Positions 2,412 through 9,174 of a DNA stretch of 27,400 nt are shown here, in pieces. The DNA is from a virus: positions 1 to 27,400 of the IMG/VR virus record IMGVR_UViG_3300007513_000167, one strand, 5' to 3'. The translations under genes were made by a program, and so were the position numbers. Below the pieces are notes generated by a model. The model ran no database searches, was not told the origin of the DNA, and saw only the letters and a list, made by a program, of their open reading frames with translations. The first letter of the stretch is position 1; each line of letters starts with the position of its first letter.

Positions 2412-4220
2412 ATGAAAAACCTCGGATTTACGAAAAAAGATTTTTGGCTAACAGCTACATCAAAGAGCACATCAAAAAGTACATCTCACTCAACTAGTAA
2501 AAGTACATCTTGGTCGACTAGTAAGTCTACAACTACTACATACAATACTAGTACAACAGATTTTACATTTTACGCAACAACTTATAACACTAGTACAGAT
2601 ACAACTACTACTTATAACACATCTACAGCTACTACCACAACTTATACAACAACGTGGGCTACAAGCAAATCTACAACAACTACATACGAAACCAGTAAGT
2701 CTACAACGACTACATATGAGACGTCTTCTATAACTAGTAAGAGTACTACAACAACATGGAGTACCAGTAAGAGTACAACCACTGTTTATAATACTACTAA
2801 AAGTACTTCAACTGCATATGAAACTAGTAAAAGTACAACTACTACCTATGAAACTAGTAAAAGTACAACTACAACGTATAATACTAGTACTGATACTACA
2901 ACTACATATACAACTACTTGGACGACAACGTTTAATACAACTACAACATACAATACTAGTACAGTAACTAAACTGCAAACTGATTTTGGACAATCAACGT
3001 CAAGAAGCACTACAACTACTTTTAACACAAGTACTACCACTACAACTGCATTCAATACTAGTACAACTACCACTACTACATACGAAACTAGTCATAATAC
3101 TACAGAAAGTCGAAGCACAACAACAACATACACGACAACGTGGAATACTAGTAAAAATACTACAGAAAGTAGAAGTACAACTACTACTTATGATACTACT
3201 ACAACGTATAACACGAGTACAACTACCACTACTACCTATACTACAACATGGACAACGACATTTGGCACGACGACCGTATATAATACTAGTACCACTGTTA
3301 AAAGAAATACTGATATGGGTCAGTCAACTTCTAAAAGTACAACAACTACGTATAATACGAGTACAACGACAACTTATACTACAACATGGAATACTAGTAA
3401 AAATACGACAGAGAGTAGATCAACTACTACTACGTATACCACAAGTACAGCGTTTAATACAAGTACTGTAACTAGTAAATCTACCACTACAAGTTGGACT
3501 ACCACGTATACAACTTCAACAGTATATAACACAAGTCACGCTACATCTACATCAAGGAGTACTAGTCAAAGCACAACTACTGCATATACTACAACTTGGG
3601 CTACTAGTAAAAGTACTACTGAAAGCAGAAGCACGACAACAACATACACAACAAGTACAACATATAACACTAGTACCACAACACAACATAGTACAACCAC
3701 AAGTTGGACTACTACATATACAACATCAACAACTTATGAAACTAGTCATGCTACTTCTACATCTAGAAATACTAGTCAGAATACATTTACAGATTTTACT
3801 ACTTCGTATAATACTAGTACATCAACAACTGAGAGTAGAAGTACAACAACCACGTATACAACAACAACAACGTACAATACTAGTACTACAACAACAACTA
3901 CGTTTAATACATTAACATCAAAAAGTACTACAACAACGTGGTCAACGAGTAGATCTACAACGACAACATGGTCAACTAGTAGATCAACTACAACTACTTG
4001 GGCCACTAGTAAATCAACTACGACCTCTTGGGCTACAAGTAGAAATACAACTGAAAGTAGAAGTACATCAACGTCTGCATCAACAACAACAACATATACC
4101 ACTAGTAAAAGTACAGATACTCAATATAGTACATCACAAAATACAACAACCACTTATTATACAAATATAGAAACAAGTAGAACAACTTCAACAGGTGGGT
4201 GTGCAAGAGGATGTATATAA
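2412..4220 (+). CDS. Thr/Ser-rich aromatic-periodic repeat protein 1
   Basis: This 602-residue protein is, by eye, about half Thr and a fifth Ser. A short non-repetitive head (MKNLGFTKKDFWLTAT) leads into ~570 residues of units such as YETSKSTTTT, YNTSTTTTTT, TTWTTTFNTTTTYNTS and TESRSTTTTY. It ends STGGCARGCI with a CxxxC pair. The commonest unit is a decad from one Tyr/Trp/Phe to the next. Other spacings are 4, 6, 12, 14, 16, 20 and 22, all even apart from extra aromatics inside a DFTFY insert. Lys, Arg and His mostly share the aromatic parity. This alternation suggests beta-strand stacking (beta-solenoid or triple-spiral type), which is inference. NTS/NTT sequons are very frequent. I do not recognise a named family. 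Its place among fibre genes and beside methyltransferase and glycosyltransferase genes suggests a modified virion fibre or surface protein. Confidence 0.85.
   Translation: MKNLGFTKKDFWLTATSKSTSKSTSHSTSKSTSWSTSKSTTTTYNTSTTDFTFYATTYNTSTDTTTTYNTSTATTTTYTTTWATSKSTTTTYETSKSTTTTYETSSITSKSTTTTWSTSKSTTTVYNTTKSTSTAYETSKSTTTTYETSKSTTTTYNTSTDTTTTYTTTWTTTFNTTTTYNTSTVTKLQTDFGQSTSRSTTTTFNTSTTTTTAFNTSTTTTTTYETSHNTTESRSTTTTYTTTWNTSKNTTESRSTTTTYDTTTTYNTSTTTTTTYTTTWTTTFGTTTVYNTSTTVKRNTDMGQSTSKSTTTTYNTSTTTTYTTTWNTSKNTTESRSTTTTYTTSTAFNTSTVTSKSTTTSWTTTYTTSTVYNTSHATSTSRSTSQSTTTAYTTTWATSKSTTESRSTTTTYTTSTTYNTSTTTQHSTTTSWTTTYTTSTTYETSHATSTSRNTSQNTFTDFTTSYNTSTSTTESRSTTTTYTTTTTYNTSTTTTTTFNTLTSKSTTTTWSTSRSTTTTWSTSRSTTTTWATSKSTTTSWATSRNTTESRSTSTSASTTTTYTTSKSTDTQYSTSQNTTTTYYTNIETSRTTSTGGCARGCI
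2559..2573 (+). repeat. DFTFY insert in Thr/Ser repeat protein 1
   Basis: The five residues DFTFY sit in a YNTSTTDFTFYATTY context. The Tyr-to-Tyr distance stays at ten although extra Phe residues occupy the normally Thr positions. The same insert occurs twice in the second repeat protein (6160 and 6490). Confidence 0.8.
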
Positions 4221-4232
4221 AATTAAAATAAT

Positions 4233-5282
4233 ATGGCAACACAAATACAAAACGCATACAAAGATGCAACATTAACATTTACAGATGACAAGATAACTTG
4301 GAATTGTCCCCATCCAACAAGTGTTGGAGGACCTGGGGTATATGAAGTTATGATGGAATGGGAACAACCTATTATGGAAAAAATGGCAGAACTTGCTGTA
4401 TCCGAAGGGGACCATGTTCTTGAATGCGGTTTTGGTATGGGTATATTATCTAATGCTATTCAAGCTAGAAACCCTGCATCACATACGATATGTGAATTTC
4501 ATCCACAAGTAATAGAAAAAGCTAAAGCGTGGGCAGTTGGAAAATCTAATGTTACAATACATGAAGATAAATGGTGGTCATTATATGGTACAACTGGCAG
4601 ATACGACGCTATATTAATGGATACATATGCAGACGATGATTTACATGCTAAATTTAGAATGTTTTGCACAGCAAAAATAGTAAAAACTGGTGGTAAGATT
4701 ACTTGGTGGAATTTTAGTGGTGGAGATTCTGATGAATATATGAAATTTTATTGGACAGACGGTATAACATTTACTGATGTTTCTGTAGATCCACCTATGA
4801 ATTCATATTATAATAAAGATATTTATAAAGTACCTCTTAAAATATTAACACCACCCGCAACAGGAAGAGGTATAGTTAGTGATGTAACTGTTAATATGCC
4901 TGATTCTATTACAAAAGAAATTGAAGCAATACATAATCACAGTATCGTAACATGCGCTGACGTTAGTAATCCTAGTTTAGTTAATCAAACTTGTGGTAGA
5001 ACACTTGTTATGGTATGTAAAGGAGTTTACGATATAAACAATGGGTTATTAAAAGTAACTGGTAATCATCCAATGATAATAAAACGAGATGGATCGTGGG
5101 TAGAAAAAAATATGAATGAATTAGTTGTTGGTGATAAACTTTATAAAATAGATAATACTGAAATAGAAATAACAAGTATTGATTTTGATAGTTCAGATAC
5201 AAGGCACACTATAGCTAGAGTGTTAATTGATCATAATTATTTTGTTAACAATATTTTAATGAAAGGAGGATCTGATGGCTAA
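4233..5282 (+). CDS. GAMT/RMT2-like methyltransferase with C-terminal Hint-like segment
   Basis: This is a 349-residue protein. Residues ~35-205 look like the guanidinoacetate/arginine N-methyltransferase branch of SAM enzymes: VMMEWEQPIMEKMA ahead of motif I VLECGFGMGI (62-71), acidic motif II with E88 in TICEFHP, and YDAILMDTY (124-132), matching the substrate-binding acid-Thr-Tyr region of GAMT. From ~residue 250 the sequence resembles a Hint (intein/hedgehog) domain: YDINNGLLKVTGNHPMI with a TxxH block-B motif (T276-H279), ELVVGDKLYKI (296-305), and a C-terminal HNYFVNNIL (334-342). The usual final His-Asn plus nucleophile is absent (it ends MKGGSDG), and the block A Cys is unclear (C231, C244 or C252), so splicing is unlikely and cleavage uncertain. 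The stop codon overlaps the next gene by 8 bases. Substrate is unknown; Arg in the flanking repeat proteins is a guess. Confidence 0.75.
   Translation: MATQIQNAYKDATLTFTDDKITWNCPHPTSVGGPGVYEVMMEWEQPIMEKMAELAVSEGDHVLECGFGMGILSNAIQARNPASHTICEFHPQVIEKAKAWAVGKSNVTIHEDKWWSLYGTTGRYDAILMDTYADDDLHAKFRMFCTAKIVKTGGKITWWNFSGGDSDEYMKFYWTDGITFTDVSVDPPMNSYYNKDIYKVPLKILTPPATGRGIVSDVTVNMPDSITKEIEAIHNHSIVTCADVSNPSLVNQTCGRTLVMVCKGVYDINNGLLKVTGNHPMIIKRDGSWVEKNMNELVVGDKLYKIDNTEIEITSIDFDSSDTRHTIARVLIDHNYFVNNILMKGGSDG
5262..5270 (+). promoter_or_regulatory. Strong Shine-Dalgarno-like sequence for repeat protein 2
   Basis: AAAGGAGGA lies just before the ATG at 5275, with 5 bases between GGAGG and ATG. Nearly every other start in the window has an AT-only leader. 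It also encodes the final Lys-Gly-Gly of the methyltransferase, so chance cannot be excluded. Confidence 0.5.
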
Positions 5283-7095
5283 TACTACTACAACTTATAT
5301 GACTCAGGCGAATACGTCTAAAAGTACATCTACAAGTTGGGAAACAACTAGATCAACCACAACTTCTTGGAATACTAGTAAAAGTACAACTACCACGTGG
5401 AATACAACAACTACGTATACCACATCAACTACTTTTAATACTAGTCAAAGTACAACAACAACATATAATACGAGTCAAAGTACCACTACCACATATAACA
5501 CAAGTATTAGTACTACAACAACCTTTAATACTAGTCAGAGTACTACAACAACATATAGTACAGCTACAAGTAGAAGTACTACAACAACTTGGGCTACTAG
5601 TAAAAGTACCACAGAAAGTAGGAGTACAACAACGACATATAGTACGTCAACCGCATATAACACAAGTACAGTAACTAAGAGGTTAACTACAACAACATGG
5701 ACTACAACATTTAATACAACTACTACTTATAATACATCAAAAAATACAACTGAAAGTAGGAGTACAAGTCAAAGTACAACCACTACTTATACTACTACGT
5801 GGGCTACAAGTAAGAATACAGCCGAAAGTAGATCAACAACTACTACATACTCGACTACAACTACATATAATACATCTACTGTTACTAGTAAATCAACTAC
5901 TACTACGTGGACAACAACATTTAACACAACAACCACTTATGAAACTAGTCATAATACAACAGAAAGTAGATCAACTAGTCAGAGTACAACTACTGCATAC
6001 ACAACTACATGGAGTACTAGTAGAAACACTACAGAAAGTAGAAGTACTACAACTACTTATACAACATCAACAGTATATGCAACTAGTTCTATAACTAGTA
6101 AAACTACAACTTGGTCAACATCAAAATCTACAACAACTACTTTTAACACAAGTACTTTCGATTTTACATTTTATTTAACAACTTATAATACTAGTACAAG
6201 TACACAAACAAGTAGATCAACATCTTCTATAACAAGTAAATCTACTACAACCACATGGAGTACAAGTAAAAGTACAGCAACATCACATAGTACAACTACT
6301 ACATATACTACCTCAACAGTTTATGAAACATCTTCTATAACTAGTAAAGCTACAACTACAACGTATACAACGTCTACAGTTTATACTACTACTAAAGGTA
6401 CCACTACAACATGGGCAACTAGTAAAAGCACGACTACAACGTGGTCTACTAGTAAAAGTACTACAACGACATTTAATACAAGTACACTTGATTTTACATT
6501 TTATACAACTACTTATAATACAAGTACTAATACAGCTACAACTAGATCAACATCATCAATAACTTCTAAAAGTACCTCTACAACTTGGTCAACGTCAAAA
6601 TCTACTACTACTACGTATAATACGTCTACAACTACTACTACAACGTATAATACAAGTACCAATACCACAACAACGTATGAAACTAGTCATAGTACTACCA
6701 CAACATATAACACAAGTACTTCTACTACTACGACGTATACTACTACGTGGAATACTTCAAAGTCTACTACCACAACGTATGAGACAAGTAAAAGTACCAC
6801 AACAACATATAACACAAGTACTGTAACTAGTAAGTCTACTACTACAACGTATGAAACAAGTAAGACTACCACAACTGTATACAATACTAGTACTGTTGTT
6901 AAAAGACAAACAACATATACTAATTCAACTAGTAAATCTACTACTACTGCTTACAACACTAGTACCACTACTACTTATAATACAAGTACAACTACTACTT
7001 ATAATACAAGTACAAACACAACTAGGTCGTGGTATAGTACTTATGTAAAGAATTATAATACAGAGATTGATAGACTTAGCAGGTCTACAACTTAG
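5275..7095 (+). CDS. Thr/Ser-rich aromatic-periodic repeat protein 2
   Basis: This 606-residue paralogue of the protein at 2412-4220 has the same vocabulary: YNTSQSTTTT, WATSKSTTESRSTTTTY, TTWTTTFNTTTTY, SSITSKSTTTTW. It starts MANTTTTYMTQANTSKST with almost no separate head. It ends in a short non-repetitive tail, SWYSTYVKNYNTEIDRLS, unlike the CxxxC end of its partner. Aromatic spacings again are even (4, 6, 10, 12, 14, 16, 20, 24). DFTFY inserts occur at codons 6160 and 6490. At DNA level the Thr codons are mixed (ACA, ACT, ACC, ACG), so amino-acid periodicity is kept while exact DNA repeats are short. It overlaps the methyltransferase gene by 8 bases in another frame, so the two are probably translated together. 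Function unknown; a fibre or surface protein is inferred from composition, length and location. Confidence 0.85.
   Translation: MANTTTTYMTQANTSKSTSTSWETTRSTTTSWNTSKSTTTTWNTTTTYTTSTTFNTSQSTTTTYNTSQSTTTTYNTSISTTTTFNTSQSTTTTYSTATSRSTTTTWATSKSTTESRSTTTTYSTSTAYNTSTVTKRLTTTTWTTTFNTTTTYNTSKNTTESRSTSQSTTTTYTTTWATSKNTAESRSTTTTYSTTTTYNTSTVTSKSTTTTWTTTFNTTTTYETSHNTTESRSTSQSTTTAYTTTWSTSRNTTESRSTTTTYTTSTVYATSSITSKTTTWSTSKSTTTTFNTSTFDFTFYLTTYNTSTSTQTSRSTSSITSKSTTTTWSTSKSTATSHSTTTTYTTSTVYETSSITSKATTTTYTTSTVYTTTKGTTTTWATSKSTTTTWSTSKSTTTTFNTSTLDFTFYTTTYNTSTNTATTRSTSSITSKSTSTTWSTSKSTTTTYNTSTTTTTTYNTSTNTTTTYETSHSTTTTYNTSTSTTTTYTTTWNTSKSTTTTYETSKSTTTTYNTSTVTSKSTTTTYETSKTTTTVYNTSTVVKRQTTYTNSTSKSTTTAYNTSTTTTYNTSTTTTYNTSTNTTRSWYSTYVKNYNTEIDRLSRSTT
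6160..6174 (+). repeat. DFTFY insert, first copy in repeat protein 2
   Basis: Sits in FNTSTFDFTFYLTTYNTST. The decad register is kept across the insert. Confidence 0.8.
6490..6504 (+). repeat. DFTFY insert, second copy in repeat protein 2
   Basis: Sits in FNTSTLDFTFYTTTYNTST. Its surroundings (TTTWSTSKSTTTTFNTST before, SSITSKST after) parallel the copy at 6160, suggesting that a segment of roughly 330 bases was duplicated inside the gene. Confidence 0.8.
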
Positions 7096-7154
7096 GTAGA
7101 AAACACTAAAAATGTGTAATAATATATATACTAATATAAATTAAATTTAATAAT

Positions 7155-8063
7155 ATGGAAATGTTTAATAAGAAGGAACTAGACAAGAGAATAGGTCCCC
7201 TTAAAAAAAATAAACGACTATATGAACTAGAAACAATCGAAGGATATGTTATTAGGAAATGTAGTGAACTTGGTTTAGAATCAAGTTATGATGTTTTAGC
7301 AGAAGAAATGCCTTATTTTAAGACAATGGGTTATACAGAGTTTGCAACAAGTTTTTATATGCAACCATTGAATCTTAAACAAAGGAACGAACAATTAGCT
7401 GATGCATGGAATTCAAAACCAGAATCTGTAGAAGATTATGCTAGTTATTTGATAAATAATATTCAAAAAAACACTGCTAATAAATATACAGATAGATCTG
7501 AAGAATTTGATAAGTATCCACCAAAAGATTATTTGGTTGTATTACCTGGATCAAATAAAATAAAATCTAATATCTGTTTAAATAGATTAAGAGAGATTAA
7601 AAAGCAACATGGAGATAATATATATTTTAAACCACACCCAATAACAACTCATCAAATAATTGGTGAATTAAAGGATTTTTTTGGTGAACAATGTATATTA
7701 CCTAGAACAATTGACATGTATTACTATATGCAAAAAGCTGAAGGTGTTTATACAACACATATAAGTGAAAGTGCTATTTATGCTGCTCTTTTAGGAAAAA
7801 GAATAGAACCAATAGATGTTTGGAATAATATTATGCATGGATCATTTTCATGTATAAATAGTTATCTCTTTACAAACCAAGATAATATAAAAGAATTTAT
7901 AAATCATACCTTCTCAAATCATAAATCAGGGATTATTAATCCCCATGTAGATAAAGATTGGAGAGCTAAAGTTGATAAGTATTTTGACTATATTATGGAA
8001 AAAAGAGAGGTATATAAAGATTGGTTTATTACTAAACCAAAGAAGAAAGTGATTAAAAAGTAA
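7155..8063 (+). CDS. Putative GT-B glycosyltransferase (capsule-biosynthesis type)
   Basis: This 302-residue protein starts at an ATG in the SD-less context TTTAATAATATGG. The second half has the layout of the C-terminal half of GT-B enzymes related to capsule polysaccharide transferases: DYLVVLPGS (125-133), a helix, then NIYFKPHP (155-162). After this come IDMYYYMQKAEGVYTTHISESAIYAALLGKRIEPI (about 186-220), the usual 'monitored position, Ser-Glu-Ser, Ala-Leu-Leu-Gly-Lys' nucleotide-sugar site. The N-terminal half is poorly recognisable and could be the acceptor domain. No membrane segment is evident, and the C-terminus is Lys-rich. Directly following two proteins with hundreds of Ser/Thr and dozens of NTS sequons, it is a natural candidate to glycosylate them. 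Modification of host capsule or teichoic-like polymers is the alternative. Donor sugar and acceptor are not deducible. Confidence 0.6.
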   Translation: MEMFNKKELDKRIGPLKKNKRLYELETIEGYVIRKCSELGLESSYDVLAEEMPYFKTMGYTEFATSFYMQPLNLKQRNEQLADAWNSKPESVEDYASYLINNIQKNTANKYTDRSEEFDKYPPKDYLVVLPGSNKIKSNICLNRLREIKKQHGDNIYFKPHPITTHQIIGELKDFFGEQCILPRTIDMYYYMQKAEGVYTTHISESAIYAALLGKRIEPIDVWNNIMHGSFSCINSYLFTNQDNIKEFINHTFSNHKSGIINPHVDKDWRAKVDKYFDYIMEKREVYKDWFITKPKKKVIKK

Positions 8064-8394: not shown

Positions 8395-8590
8395 TATAGG
8401 TAAAGATTATAAAAACGAAGCTATGCATTATGCCGTAGATCAAGAGGTTTACGGCGGGCATATTATTTGTAATATAATTGAAGAAGACGATAAATATAGT
8501 ATTTTTATTAATAAAGGTGACGAAGTATTACCTTGGAAAGATTTTAATAAAAATATGGCTATAGCAGTTGAATACAATTTAGAGTATTAG
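8369..8590 (+). CDS. Small hypothetical protein
   Basis: At most 73 residues, overlapping the previous gene by 26 bases if the ATG at 8369 is used. A TTG at 8378 would give MIRKISIGKDYK and a shorter overlap, and is equally plausible. The sequence (YAVDQEVYGGHIICNIIEEDDKYSIFINKGDEVLPWKDFN in overview) looks like a compact alpha/beta fold with acidic patches. No motif is recognised. The stop shares its last G with the GTG start of the next gene (TAGTG), which supports translational coupling and a real gene. Confidence 0.6.
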   Translation: MSQLIRKISIGKDYKNEAMHYAVDQEVYGGHIICNIIEEDDKYSIFINKGDEVLPWKDFNKNMAIAVEYNLEY

Positions 8591-9174
8591 TGAAAGGTAT
8601 ATATAATTTTATAGTAAAACCAAAAGATACTAGATACAATAATACTAAAAAGATAGGTGATAAAGAGTTAATTATTAACACTGATAATTTCCAACACCAA
8701 CATGTTAGTAGAGAAGCTATAGTAATATCTGTTCCTAAATCAATTAAAACAGATATAAAAGTAGGTGATGAAATAATAGTGCACCATAATATATTTAGAA
8801 GATATTTAGATATTAGAGGTGATGAGCAAGATAGTAAAAGTTATTATAAAGACAATATGTATTTTGTTTTTATTGATCAAATTTACGCTTATAAAAGAAA
8901 TAAAGATTGGATACCTTTAGACCAGTACTGTTTCGTTAAACCTATTAAACCTTATAGTAAATTAGATACCAATAAAGAAGAACCTTTAATTGGTATACTG
9001 AAATATACTAATAAAAAATTACCTAAATCAGGTAGTTTAGTTGGATTTACACCTAATAGTGAATATGAGTTTGTTATTAATAACGAACGACTATATAGAG
9101 TAAGAACACAAGACATTGCAATTAAATATGAATATCAAGGAAAAGAAGAAGAATATAATCCAAGCTGGTTATAA
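8590..9174 (+). CDS. GroES/Cpn10-like protein with two tandem domains
   Basis: A 194-residue protein starting at GTG inside TAGTG. Residues ~5-95 follow the co-chaperonin pattern: FIVKPKDTR, REAIVISVPKSIKTDIKVGDEIIVHHNIFR (41-70 in outline), NMYFVFIDQIYAYK. 'KVGDEIIVHHN' corresponds to the GroES 'KVGD.V.F' barrel strand. A second copy of the fold seems to begin at DQYCFVKPIKP (about 113) and runs through GILKYTNKKLPKSGSLVGF to RTQDIAIKYEYQ. Ordinary GroES is ~95 residues, so this is a double-length form. Phage co-chaperonins such as T4 gp31 help fold capsid protein with host GroEL, and the position just before the packaging and head genes fits that. It could instead have become a structural protein; the assignment rests on motif resemblance. 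Confidence 0.55.
   Translation: MKGIYNFIVKPKDTRYNNTKKIGDKELIINTDNFQHQHVSREAIVISVPKSIKTDIKVGDEIIVHHNIFRRYLDIRGDEQDSKSYYKDNMYFVFIDQIYAYKRNKDWIPLDQYCFVKPIKPYSKLDTNKEEPLIGILKYTNKKLPKSGSLVGFTPNSEYEFVINNERLYRVRTQDIAIKYEYQGKEEEYNPSWL

Follow-up and report, generated by a model that had tools for sequence, protein, structure and literature searches.

What is made by four consecutive genes of a virus, two of them exceptionally rich in Thr and Ser, that occupy positions 2412–8063 of the window, as we call the whole 27,400-nucleotide stretch of DNA analysed here? An initial annotation had read them as a possible cassette that builds and decorates a mucin-like fibre, and all four open reading frames are indeed present where it placed them, co-directional on the plus strand. 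The first encodes TS1 (2412–4220; 602 aa, with MKNLGFTKKDFW at its N-terminus and the tail GGCARGCI at its C-terminus) and the third TS2 (5275–7095; 606 aa). Between them lies a gene for a GAMT-like methyltransferase with a C-terminal Hint/intein-like domain (4233–5282; 349 aa, with the two parts at approximately residues 1–205 and 210–345), and TS2 is followed by a gene for a putative KpsC-like sugar transferase of GT-B fold (7155–8063; 302 aa, phrog_26179). The upstream neighbour, also on the plus strand (1122–2399), is not part of this core; its product appears fibre- or appendage-like by eye, matches DUF2345 at an E value of 0.0027, under the Pfam cut-off, and has no PHROG match at E 0.1.

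With respect to composition, the description of TS1 and TS2 as Thr/Ser-rich repeat proteins is borne out, with 287 Thr and 108 Ser in TS1 and 288 Thr and 115 Ser in TS2. This very high Thr/Ser content, along with the linked GT-B-like gene and, in part of the family, the GAMT-like gene, is what speaks for the original proposal of a disordered, O/N-glycosylated backbone bearing methylated Arg/Lys. Neither protein contains a single Pro, however, and the N-x-S/T sequons to which the annotation drew attention, while present (25 and 32), are hardly enriched over composition, as these counts lie near those of composition-matched shuffles (means 19.5 and 24.0, maxima 28 and 31). Moreover, both proteins follow a strict register of two residues, with aromatics and Lys/Arg on one parity (face A) and Ser/Asn on the other (face B). 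Across 121 T/S proteins, even spacings account for 6134/6613 aromatic and 4371/4601 Lys/Arg/His intervals, and when parity is fixed by Lys/Arg alone, Ser makes up 0.7% of face A versus 29.8% of face B, the corresponding values for aromatics being 17% and 1%. This parity is statistically supported in the family as a whole, and is weak in the Vibrio phages (58 to 78% even aromatic spacings) and broken for aromatics in the Caulobacter phages (15/33, 10/29, 11/32 and 7/26 even).

The central observation is that TS1 and TS2 are complementary when read in opposite directions. In one antiparallel register of the window pair, 33/39 and 34/39 Lys/Arg residues lie opposite an aromatic. For a held-out assessment, the register was picked on Lys/Arg of TS1 against aromatics of TS2 and scored on aromatics of TS1 against Lys/Arg of TS2, using 46 unique phage pairs reduced to 45 by leaving out the frameshifted L014. 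A held-out z above 4 was obtained for 44/45 antiparallel pairs and for 1/45 mismatched phages, with a mean z of 7.3 over the 45 pairs, and the chosen register ranked first in 45/45, as compared to 16/225 across-cluster mismatches. The parallel register, at 0/45 in both held-out tests, was rejected. The complementarity is thus statistically supported among pairs that are themselves related, falling into 14 clusters at 70% TS1 identity, the largest with 26 members. Pooled, 1743/2311 Lys/Arg of TS1 (the class that chose the register) and 1666/2003 of TS2 face an aromatic, roughly 8 times expectation, and Ser–Asn opposition is enriched approximately 2.5-fold. Trp participates less, as Arg–Trp pairs are not enriched (1.1–1.2) and Lys–Trp pairs only 2.0–3.5 times. 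Between relatives, 33 two-sided changes connect favoured states and 15 do not, next to 254 one-sided changes, none of these counts being independent. Judged from the sequences, the pairing code appears largely private to each phage lineage. The regular placement of Lys/Arg noted in the initial annotation is explained by this pairing, and its reading of these residues as methylation targets is not supported: because most of them face partner aromatics, they are probably structural partners.

Two other origins for this match were considered. Antiparallel complementarity is also the signature of base pairing, so that mRNAs or genes could in principle generate it, and nucleotide complementarity in the window is 0.384 at the register versus a mean of 0.349 (sd 0.011) elsewhere, or about 3 sd. 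Over the 45 pairs, however, the nucleotide signal has a mean z of 1.43 and exceeds 3 in 4/45, far from the 7.3 of the residue signal; nucleotide-level pairing was rejected on these grounds, and we regard its probability as virtually negligible. It is likewise quite unlikely that each T/S protein folds alone, as a β-solenoid or homotrimeric β-helix, with the resemblance of TS1 to TS2 reflecting common descent. A point in its favour is that TS1 of a sister group carries an S74 chaperone domain, which occurs on trimeric fibres. The most frequent distances between aromatics (10, 4, 6, 16, 14 and 12) are even but otherwise irregular, though, and hence imply no fixed turn length, and common descent does not produce a backwards match of two sequences while the parallel control fails. 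What counts against the ribbon reading set out below is the AlphaFold2 prediction for a 400-residue segment of TS1 without its partner, which reached a mean pLDDT of 46.9, showed nothing but long strands in the parts that were structured, and supported no tertiary fold.

Strands registered end to end would be expected to co-evolve in repeat length, and a coupling of this kind is statistically supported. Repeat lengths of TS1 and TS2 correlate with r = 0.96 over 46 pairs, 31 of which match to within 25 residues, while the full lengths in the S74 group (n = 19) correlate with r = 0.998 at a difference of 155 ± 8.6 aa. Larger repeat-length gaps of 127–183 residues occur in 11/46 pairs, comprising one frameshifted pair, nine from two subgroups in which the offset hardly varies, and L033; four further pairs differ by 38–55. 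Insertions and deletions are coupled as well. Among relatives at 80% TS1 and 75% TS2 identity (15 pairs, gaps of at least 4 residues, L014 and L033 left out), 29/85 TS1 gaps have an equal-size TS2 gap and 56/85 do not. With each gap matched to the nearest equal-size gap in either direction, and with gap placement in repeats being uncertain, 27/29 of these lie closer to the mirror than to the parallel position, and 13 of the 29 are within 25 residues of the mirror position compared to none for the parallel one. Even lengths were found for 143/160 gaps. A disordered backbone has no need of either antiparallel complementarity or length coupling, which, along with the absence of Pro and the two-residue register, leads us to abandon the term mucin-like and to view a disordered glycosylated backbone as highly improbable.

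A single-gene version of the TS1/TS2 pair exists in Vibrio phages such as KVP40, where the two strands would form a hairpin within one chain. Lys/Arg–aromatic pairing in this hairpin amounts to 9/10 in KVP40 and 13/15 in D479, and in each of five Vibrio phages 0/300 parity-preserving shuffles reach the observed value. The signal is weaker in Lullwater (10/13) and BL199 (8/11), each matched by 3/300 shuffles, and is absent from Quill_5.2, whose C-terminus looks frameshifted. The T/S-rich gene lacks annotation in Vibrio phages F86, D484 and D479.

The conserved gene module that had been proposed is also recovered in the loci of relatives. A GT-like gene directly follows TS2, identified here through its first four residues, in 55/55 unique loci whose downstream sequence extends for 1.1 kb or more, with no TS2 lacking it among these loci, and a T/S-rich ORF precedes the GT-like gene in 67/69 marine loci; the two exceptions are L089, where the ORF call is truncated and a T/S ORF is present, and L163, which looks frameshifted. 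These counts describe the closest relatives, since the three scans kept the best 80 of 179, 267 and 238 candidates. Within that scope the linkage is statistically supported. As for the suggestion that both enzymes accompany the repeat genes, it held for the GT-like gene throughout those 55 loci but not for the GAMT-like gene: of 52 loci compared, 19 carry both repeat genes and, in its slot, a different Rossmann-type protein. Further afield, the transferase adjoins a ribbon gene in 10/11 distant phage records inspected; in DLP_6 the transferase is present and the ribbon gene not adjacent, and the T/S fraction in Cr30 is just 0.27.

The assignment of the fourth gene as GT-B-like agrees, as to fold, with its AlphaFold2 model (pLDDT 80.7, pTM 0.80). 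Structure comparison of this model gives the Kdo transferases KpsC, WbbB and KrkA as nearest neighbours (KpsC: Z 10.8, rmsd 3.8 Å, 222 residues), placing the modelled protein within the KpsC-type fold; the first 15 matches are all of Kdo-transferase type (Z 10.8 to 7.8), and the next families score at most 7.4. KpsC is a weak match by Foldseek (E 2.4e-3), ranking below other GT-B-like entries. At the sequence level, nothing credible was found in the PDB (best E 0.26) and nothing useful in Pfam or NCBIfam, with no capsule-family Pfam match at E 1. Residues invariant in 28 transferase sequences include D46, G132, N134, K159, H161, P162, T164 and E205. KpsC, WbbB and KrkA act on capsule or LPS, and the Asp nucleophile to which the titles of KpsC entries point has no assigned counterpart in the phage transferase family. 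Both points fit a protein that acts on host glycans, for example in a superinfection block, or one that serves as a structural or assembly factor devoid of transferase activity. Set against this is the adjacency to ribbon genes in marine podovirus-like contigs, KVP40-like phages and Caulobacter phages, which persists even though four distant transferases aligned are only 22–26% identical to the window protein. We therefore judge a host-directed or purely structural role unlikely, while plausible enough to be kept in view, and prefer the ribbon as the probable substrate of the transferase.

With respect to the second gene, the initial description as GAMT-like is confirmed by clear sequence homology, a profile (A2) matching GAMT structures at E 5e-20 and a single sequence (L212) at E 2e-15. 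In GAMT, the Glu following Trp and the Asp of the DTY motif contact the guanidino group, and both acidic residues are kept in the phage family: the WE-motif Glu and GFGMG are present in 63/63 members, and DTY/DTF in 55/63 by regular expression, the remainder being 5 unmatched (L216 reads DTW), 2 LFA and 1 DGV. The Hint-like tail is a weaker match. The C-terminal part aligns at E 7.6e-6 with 9hth, a 173-residue chain listed in the PDB as DNA polymerase and taken here to be the intein of that polymerase, and Pfam Intein_splicing (PF14890) scores E 0.0056, below cut-off. A catalytic C-terminal His-Asn is an intein motif; it occurs within the last 8 residues of 0/28 Hint-bearing members, in which rough expressions detect a block-B-type His in 10/28 and an N-terminal-type Cys in 24/28. 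An active self-splicing Hint was accordingly judged unlikely. The second gene product presumably also resembles the RMT2-type arginine methyltransferase of yeast. RMT2 is a δ-N arginine methyltransferase, according to PMC4860837.

The presence of the GAMT-like gene tracks the C-terminus of TS1. In the window, TS1 ends in GGCARGCI (4194–4217, plus strand), a Cys/Gly-flanked Arg that is a candidate methylation target, and has neither a Peptidase_S74 domain nor any Pfam match at E 1. An Arg tail is present on TS1 in 30/33 loci with the GAMT-like gene, the others being L014, which is frameshifted, L181, whose GLPPRGGGGG escaped the expression used, and L224, which is no T/S ribbon. In the sister group without this gene (M185), TS1 carries S74 in 17/19 loci by motif, leaving L080, whose tail looks S74-like, and L104; Pfam PF13884 (Peptidase_S74) scores E 1e-5 for L072, above cut-off, and 5e-4 for L042, just below. 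Because sister-group TS1 carries this C-terminal chaperone domain, the earlier view of TS1 as fibre-like gains support. TS1 and the methyltransferase gene are spaced in-frame in 7/9 loci with the GAMT-like gene.

These features bear on whether the GAMT-like gene instead serves creatine production as an auxiliary metabolic gene. As described in PMC11360552, GAMT is the most virus-enriched gene of an ocean survey (85.4-fold), with creatine production proposed, and the homology to GAMT is clear. Nonetheless, in 13/14 fully read loci (all but L185) its immediate upstream neighbour is a T/S gene or one that looks fibre-like by eye, and the tail type of TS1 follows the enzyme, so that a creatine-producing role seems very unlikely to us. 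In phages without T/S proteins, Arg-Gly is invariant in 16/16 aligned products of the gene following the GAMT-like gene, and may there be a structural motif. One such downstream gene has 14 relatives, 13 with a GAMT-like gene directly upstream (at least 5 of them on contigs already in the methyltransferase scan) and the last cut off; a copy lacking the enzyme was not encountered among these 14, and a search with a second such gene returned only its own contig.

Taken together, we consider it likely that TS1 and TS2 form an antiparallel β-ribbon virion fibre that the KpsC-like enzyme glycosylates and whose tail Arg the GAMT-like enzyme methylates. Specifically, we infer that each chain would be one very long β-strand with residues alternating between faces, the two chains pairing as the strands of a single ribbon. 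On face A, most Lys/Arg would sit opposite a partner Tyr or Phe (less often Trp) as cation–π rungs with Thr–Thr pairs between them; face B would present Thr, Ser and Asn, many of the Ser residues facing an Asn. The KVP40-type phages would have the two strands in a single chain, connected by a turn. The ribbon, some 200 nm long in the window if the pair is fully extended, would probably owe its anchoring or trimerisation to the C-terminal end of TS1, through S74 in the sister group and the Cys/Gly-Arg tail here, and a trimer of ribbons may result. The transferase probably modifies this ribbon, the likeliest sites being Ser/Thr of face B and the likeliest donor a CMP-activated sugar such as Kdo. 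The GAMT-like enzyme probably methylates the tail Arg of TS1 with its Gly/Cys flanks, while the Hint-derived domain would serve as a non-splicing docking module. That such a ribbon, built from two products or one hairpin by a residue-by-residue code, with a glycosylated face and an Arg-methylated TS1 tip, is a novel architecture is a tentative view, held with slightly less than even confidence.

If correct, the model would describe a new filament principle, a heterodimeric β double strand with a readable Lys/Arg–Tyr/Phe code and fibres of evolvable length, useful for protein design, and would make sense of a set of T/S-rich genes in phages. The orphan phage transferase family present in KVP40 would thereby gain a candidate target as well. 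Marine viral 'GAMT' genes of the cassette kind would then be fibre-modifying enzymes and not creatine metabolism genes (compare PMC11360552).

Several known systems provide points of comparison. The second gene shares with GAMT its sequence match, WE-motif Glu and Asp-Thr-Tyr/Phe, and differs in its phage fibre context and Hint-like extension. Sister-group TS1 has the C-terminal PF13884 domain of Peptidase_S74 tail fibres and tailspikes; the TS1 shaft, in contrast, is built of two-face T/S repeats and has a partner running antiparallel to it, and the window tail is Cys/Gly-Arg. In heteromeric coiled coils and designed cation–π or Trp-zipper β-hairpins, strands recognise one another via a residue code and cross-strand side-chain pairs, whereas the TS1/TS2 strands span approximately 400–1650 residues, are apparently β, and carry Lys/Arg–aromatic rungs. 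We know of no natural β pairing of such length, and such a ribbon is not mentioned in the titles or abstract openings of the literature searched, a body that leaves most subscription journals outside. The transferase shares its fold with KpsC, WbbB and KrkA, its best structural matches, at only about 10% identity, and its acceptor is probably a virion protein. Phage proteins carrying glycans have a precedent in mycobacteriophages, where the work of Freeman et al. 2023, as PMC12619734 cites it, places the glycans at the C-termini of capsid and tail tube; here, by contrast, the ribbon gene of the window adjoins the gene of its putative modifying enzyme.

The four consecutive genes of the initial annotation were confirmed in the window. 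The genes for two long Thr/Ser-rich (T/S) repeat proteins, TS1 (2412-4220) and TS2 (5275-7095), flank that of a methyltransferase carrying a Hint-like tail (4233-5282), and a GT-B-like gene closes the series (7155-8063). This cassette sits upstream of a podovirus-like head module in the 27.4 kb virus record, the terminase of which shares 64% identity with its counterpart from Podoviridae sp. ctfjg026 (MW202828) and ~44% with those of Flavobacterium phages. Within the 26 kb of MW202828 surrounding its terminase, no ORF of at least 100 aa had a T/S fraction >0.27, and none matched the profiles for the transferase (the fourth cassette gene), for GAMT-like proteins or for M185, a ~185 aa Rossmann-type protein with a weak, below cut-off likeness to spermidine synthase. 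A GroES-like gene is found at 8590-9174 (phrog_13932); the MW202828 annotation includes GroEL and chaperonin 10, and ORFs of a related locus (L012) appear similar by eye. TS1 and the methyltransferase share one frame across a stop codon (4218-4233 in the window) in seven of nine GAMT rows, and a readthrough fusion of the two is possible.

With respect to sequence pattern, aromatic residues in the window are separated by even spacings in 56 of 63 cases for TS1 and 58 of 64 for TS2; in shuffled sequences the even fraction averaged 0.47 and peaked at 0.68 and 0.73, respectively. Across 121 T/S proteins from marine loci, even spacings account for 6134/6613 aromatic and 4371/4601 Lys/Arg/His intervals. 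When parity was fixed from Lys/Arg alone, one set of alternate positions (face A) contained 62% Thr, 17% aromatic residues and 14% Lys/Arg, with Ser and Asn each <1%, and in the other (face B) Thr accounted for 33%, Ser for 30% and Asn for 17%; Pro and Gly were at ~1% or below on both faces. Such alternation without turn formers is the pattern that a very long beta-strand would show. A single-chain AlphaFold2 model of TS1 was of low confidence (46.9) and consisted of strands only, three of them of at least 30 residues. The even-spacing rule for aromatics is not general, as the values are 58-78% in five Vibrio phages, and it fails in four Caulobacter phages (7/26 to 15/33 even).

The relationship between the two repeat proteins was evaluated by reversing TS2 and scanning offsets for TS1 Lys/Arg opposite TS2 aromatics, with the chosen offset then scored on an independent class, TS1 aromatics opposite TS2 Lys/Arg. 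All but one of the 45 pairs had a held-out z above 4 (mean 7.3; the exception, from locus L083, gave no value), as compared to 0/45 in parallel orientation and 1/45 for mismatched pairs. Moreover, this score was unsurpassed at other same-parity offsets in 45/45 antiparallel and 0/45 parallel cases. Grouped by TS1 identity (70%), the 45 pairs fall into 14 clusters, among them one with 26 members, and combinations of TS1 and TS2 from different clusters ranked first in 16 of 225 cases (median rank 17). Specifically, 33/39 Lys/Arg of TS1 and 34/39 of TS2 face an aromatic residue in the window; the pooled values are 1743/2311 for TS1, the class used in choosing the register, and 1666/2003 for TS2. 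The signal is borne by Phe and Tyr, at 6 to 11 times expectation, versus 2.0-3.5 for Lys-Trp and 1.1-1.2 for Arg-Trp, and Ser-Asn pairs on face B are enriched ~2.5-fold. A rarer motif, DFTFY, faces K-[RL]-[QN]-T in all three occurrences (window register, by eye). At the nucleotide level, complementarity in the chosen register is slightly elevated, with a mean z of 1.43 (>3 in 4/45 pairs and ~3 in the window). Between relatives, partner positions bearing Lys/Arg were unchanged in 2444 cases and altered on one side in 254, and the two-sided changes comprised 33 between favored states and 15 others, these counts not being independent. The initial proposal of a mucin-like fiber was thus not borne out, and what emerged instead was alternation without turn formers together with antiparallel complementarity of TS1 and TS2.

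TS1 and TS2 appear to be partners, and their repeat lengths are coupled. These lengths range from ~410 to 1650 residues with r = 0.96 over 46 pairs, and differ by at most 25 residues in 31 pairs, by 38-55 in four and by 127-183 in 11. For the 19 pairs of the S74 group, a sister group in which TS1 ends in a Peptidase_S74 chaperone domain, full lengths give r = 0.998, with TS1 longer by 155 +/- 8.6 aa, approximately the size of its S74 end; r is 0.93 in the 27 pairs outside this group. Nine of the 11 large differences belong to loci L168-L176 and L181-L183, which have a near-constant offset, and the others to L014 (frameshifted) and L033. The 130-160 residue excess lies in TS1 in L168-L176 and in TS2 in L181-L183, and L181 has a non-T/S stretch within TS2. 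Frameshift-like C-terminal regions were seen in TS1 of L014 and in the T/S gene of Caulobacter phage Quill_5.2 (L253). Comparison of 15 pairs of relatives showed 85 TS1 gaps, of which 29 were matched by a TS2 gap of equal size and 56 were not; 27 of the 29 lay nearer in mirror position and two in parallel, with 13 and none, respectively, falling within 25 residues. Examples include a 68 aa indel at TS1 residue 125 (L061/L063), mirrored 136 residues from the TS2 end, and a 36 aa indel at residue 272 (L168/L172), mirrored 283 from the end. Over both genes, 143 of 160 gaps were of even length.

Relatives of the GT-like gene were taken from marine viral contigs (best 80 of 179 and best 80 of 267). 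Among these, 69 unique cases extend 400 nt or more upstream, and a T/S-rich ORF precedes the gene in 67 of them; for the closest relatives, the gene follows TS2 in all 55 unique cases whose downstream sequence reaches 1.1 kb or more. The slot between TS1 and TS2 is variable, holding a GAMT-like gene with or without a Hint-like tail, M185, or both; M185 fills it in the S74 group (L020, L042 and others). The type of TS1 end changes in step with this gene: a tail with Gly/Cys-flanked Arg occurs in 30 of 33 rows having a GAMT-like gene, and an S74-type motif in 17 of 19 having M185 only (Pfam PF13884 was detected at the TS1 end in L072 and L042). The sole genome-collection relative of the transferase, from MAG Flavobacteriales bacterium TMED123 (L261), has an M185-type cassette adjoining a terminase-like gene, a context hinting at a Flavobacteriales host.

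In terms of the encoded enzymes, glycosylation and methylation by the putative transferases of the cassette are plausible. A transferase model built from 24 sequences (pLDDT 80.7) best matched KpsC (Z 10.8, 3.8 Å, 222 residues), followed by WbbB and KrkA; the first 15 rows were all Kdo transferases, and the next had a Z of 7.4. Foldseek scores were weak, with UDP-GlcNAc 2-epimerases on top. Given the Kdo-transferase matches, a CMP-sugar would be the likeliest guess for the donor, and only a guess. The methyltransferase matched GAMT with E 5e-20, and the Glu of its WE motif is kept in 63/63 unique members. One ocean survey reports GAMT, present in nine populations, to be its most virus-enriched auxiliary gene and interprets it as creatine synthesis (PMC11360552). 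The gene directly upstream of the GAMT-like gene is T/S or, by eye, fiber-like at 13 of the 14 fully read loci (the exception being L185), and phage LR745206 has three long fiber-like ORFs ahead of a Hint-less relative. A Gly/Cys-flanked Arg motif is present in a direct neighbor in 42/63 cases, as compared to 3/254 ORFs lying three or more genes off (this control set is not length-matched). In phages lacking T/S ribbons, an Arg-Gly is located in the gene after the GAMT-like gene (invariant in 16/16 aligned). In ribbon-less marine phages (L198-L232), this position is taken by a ~225 aa family with the invariant Arg-Gly in a Gly-rich stretch.

More distant transferase relatives were found in Caulobacter phages Lullwater, Quill_5.2, BL199 and Cr30, Stenotrophomonas phage DLP_6, and Vibrio phages KVP40, phi-pp2, QD01, F86, D484 and D479, with 22-26% identity to the window transferase for the four aligned (Lullwater, Cr30, DLP_6 and phi-pp2). 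A T/S-repeat gene lies one or two genes upstream in 10 of the 11 records inspected. The exception is DLP_6, which lacks one near its transferase, and the Cr30 gene is a weak case, with a T/S fraction of 0.27. This arrangement sets a core pair of ribbon and transferase apart from the optional methyltransferase. In F86, D484 and D479 (L250, L251 and L252), the T/S hairpin genes (170-185 aa) are a short way upstream of the transferase gene and unannotated in the deposited records; all three proteins have Cys residues close to the tip of the predicted hairpin. T/S proteins of the Vibrio phages would self-pair by the same scheme as TS1 and TS2, their arms pairing around a central Gly-containing turn. 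Paired-arm Lys/Arg oppose an aromatic residue in 9/10 (KVP40), 9/11 (QD01), 11/13 (F86), 11/13 (D484) and 13/15 (D479) cases, values reached by 0/300 parity-preserving shuffles. Pairing is weaker in Lullwater (10/13) and BL199 (8/11), each reached by 3/300 shuffles, and the signal is absent in Quill_5.2 (reached by 299/300), which has a frameshift-like C-terminus. The strongest result remains the antiparallel complementarity of two separate proteins, an arrangement that we matched to no known system.
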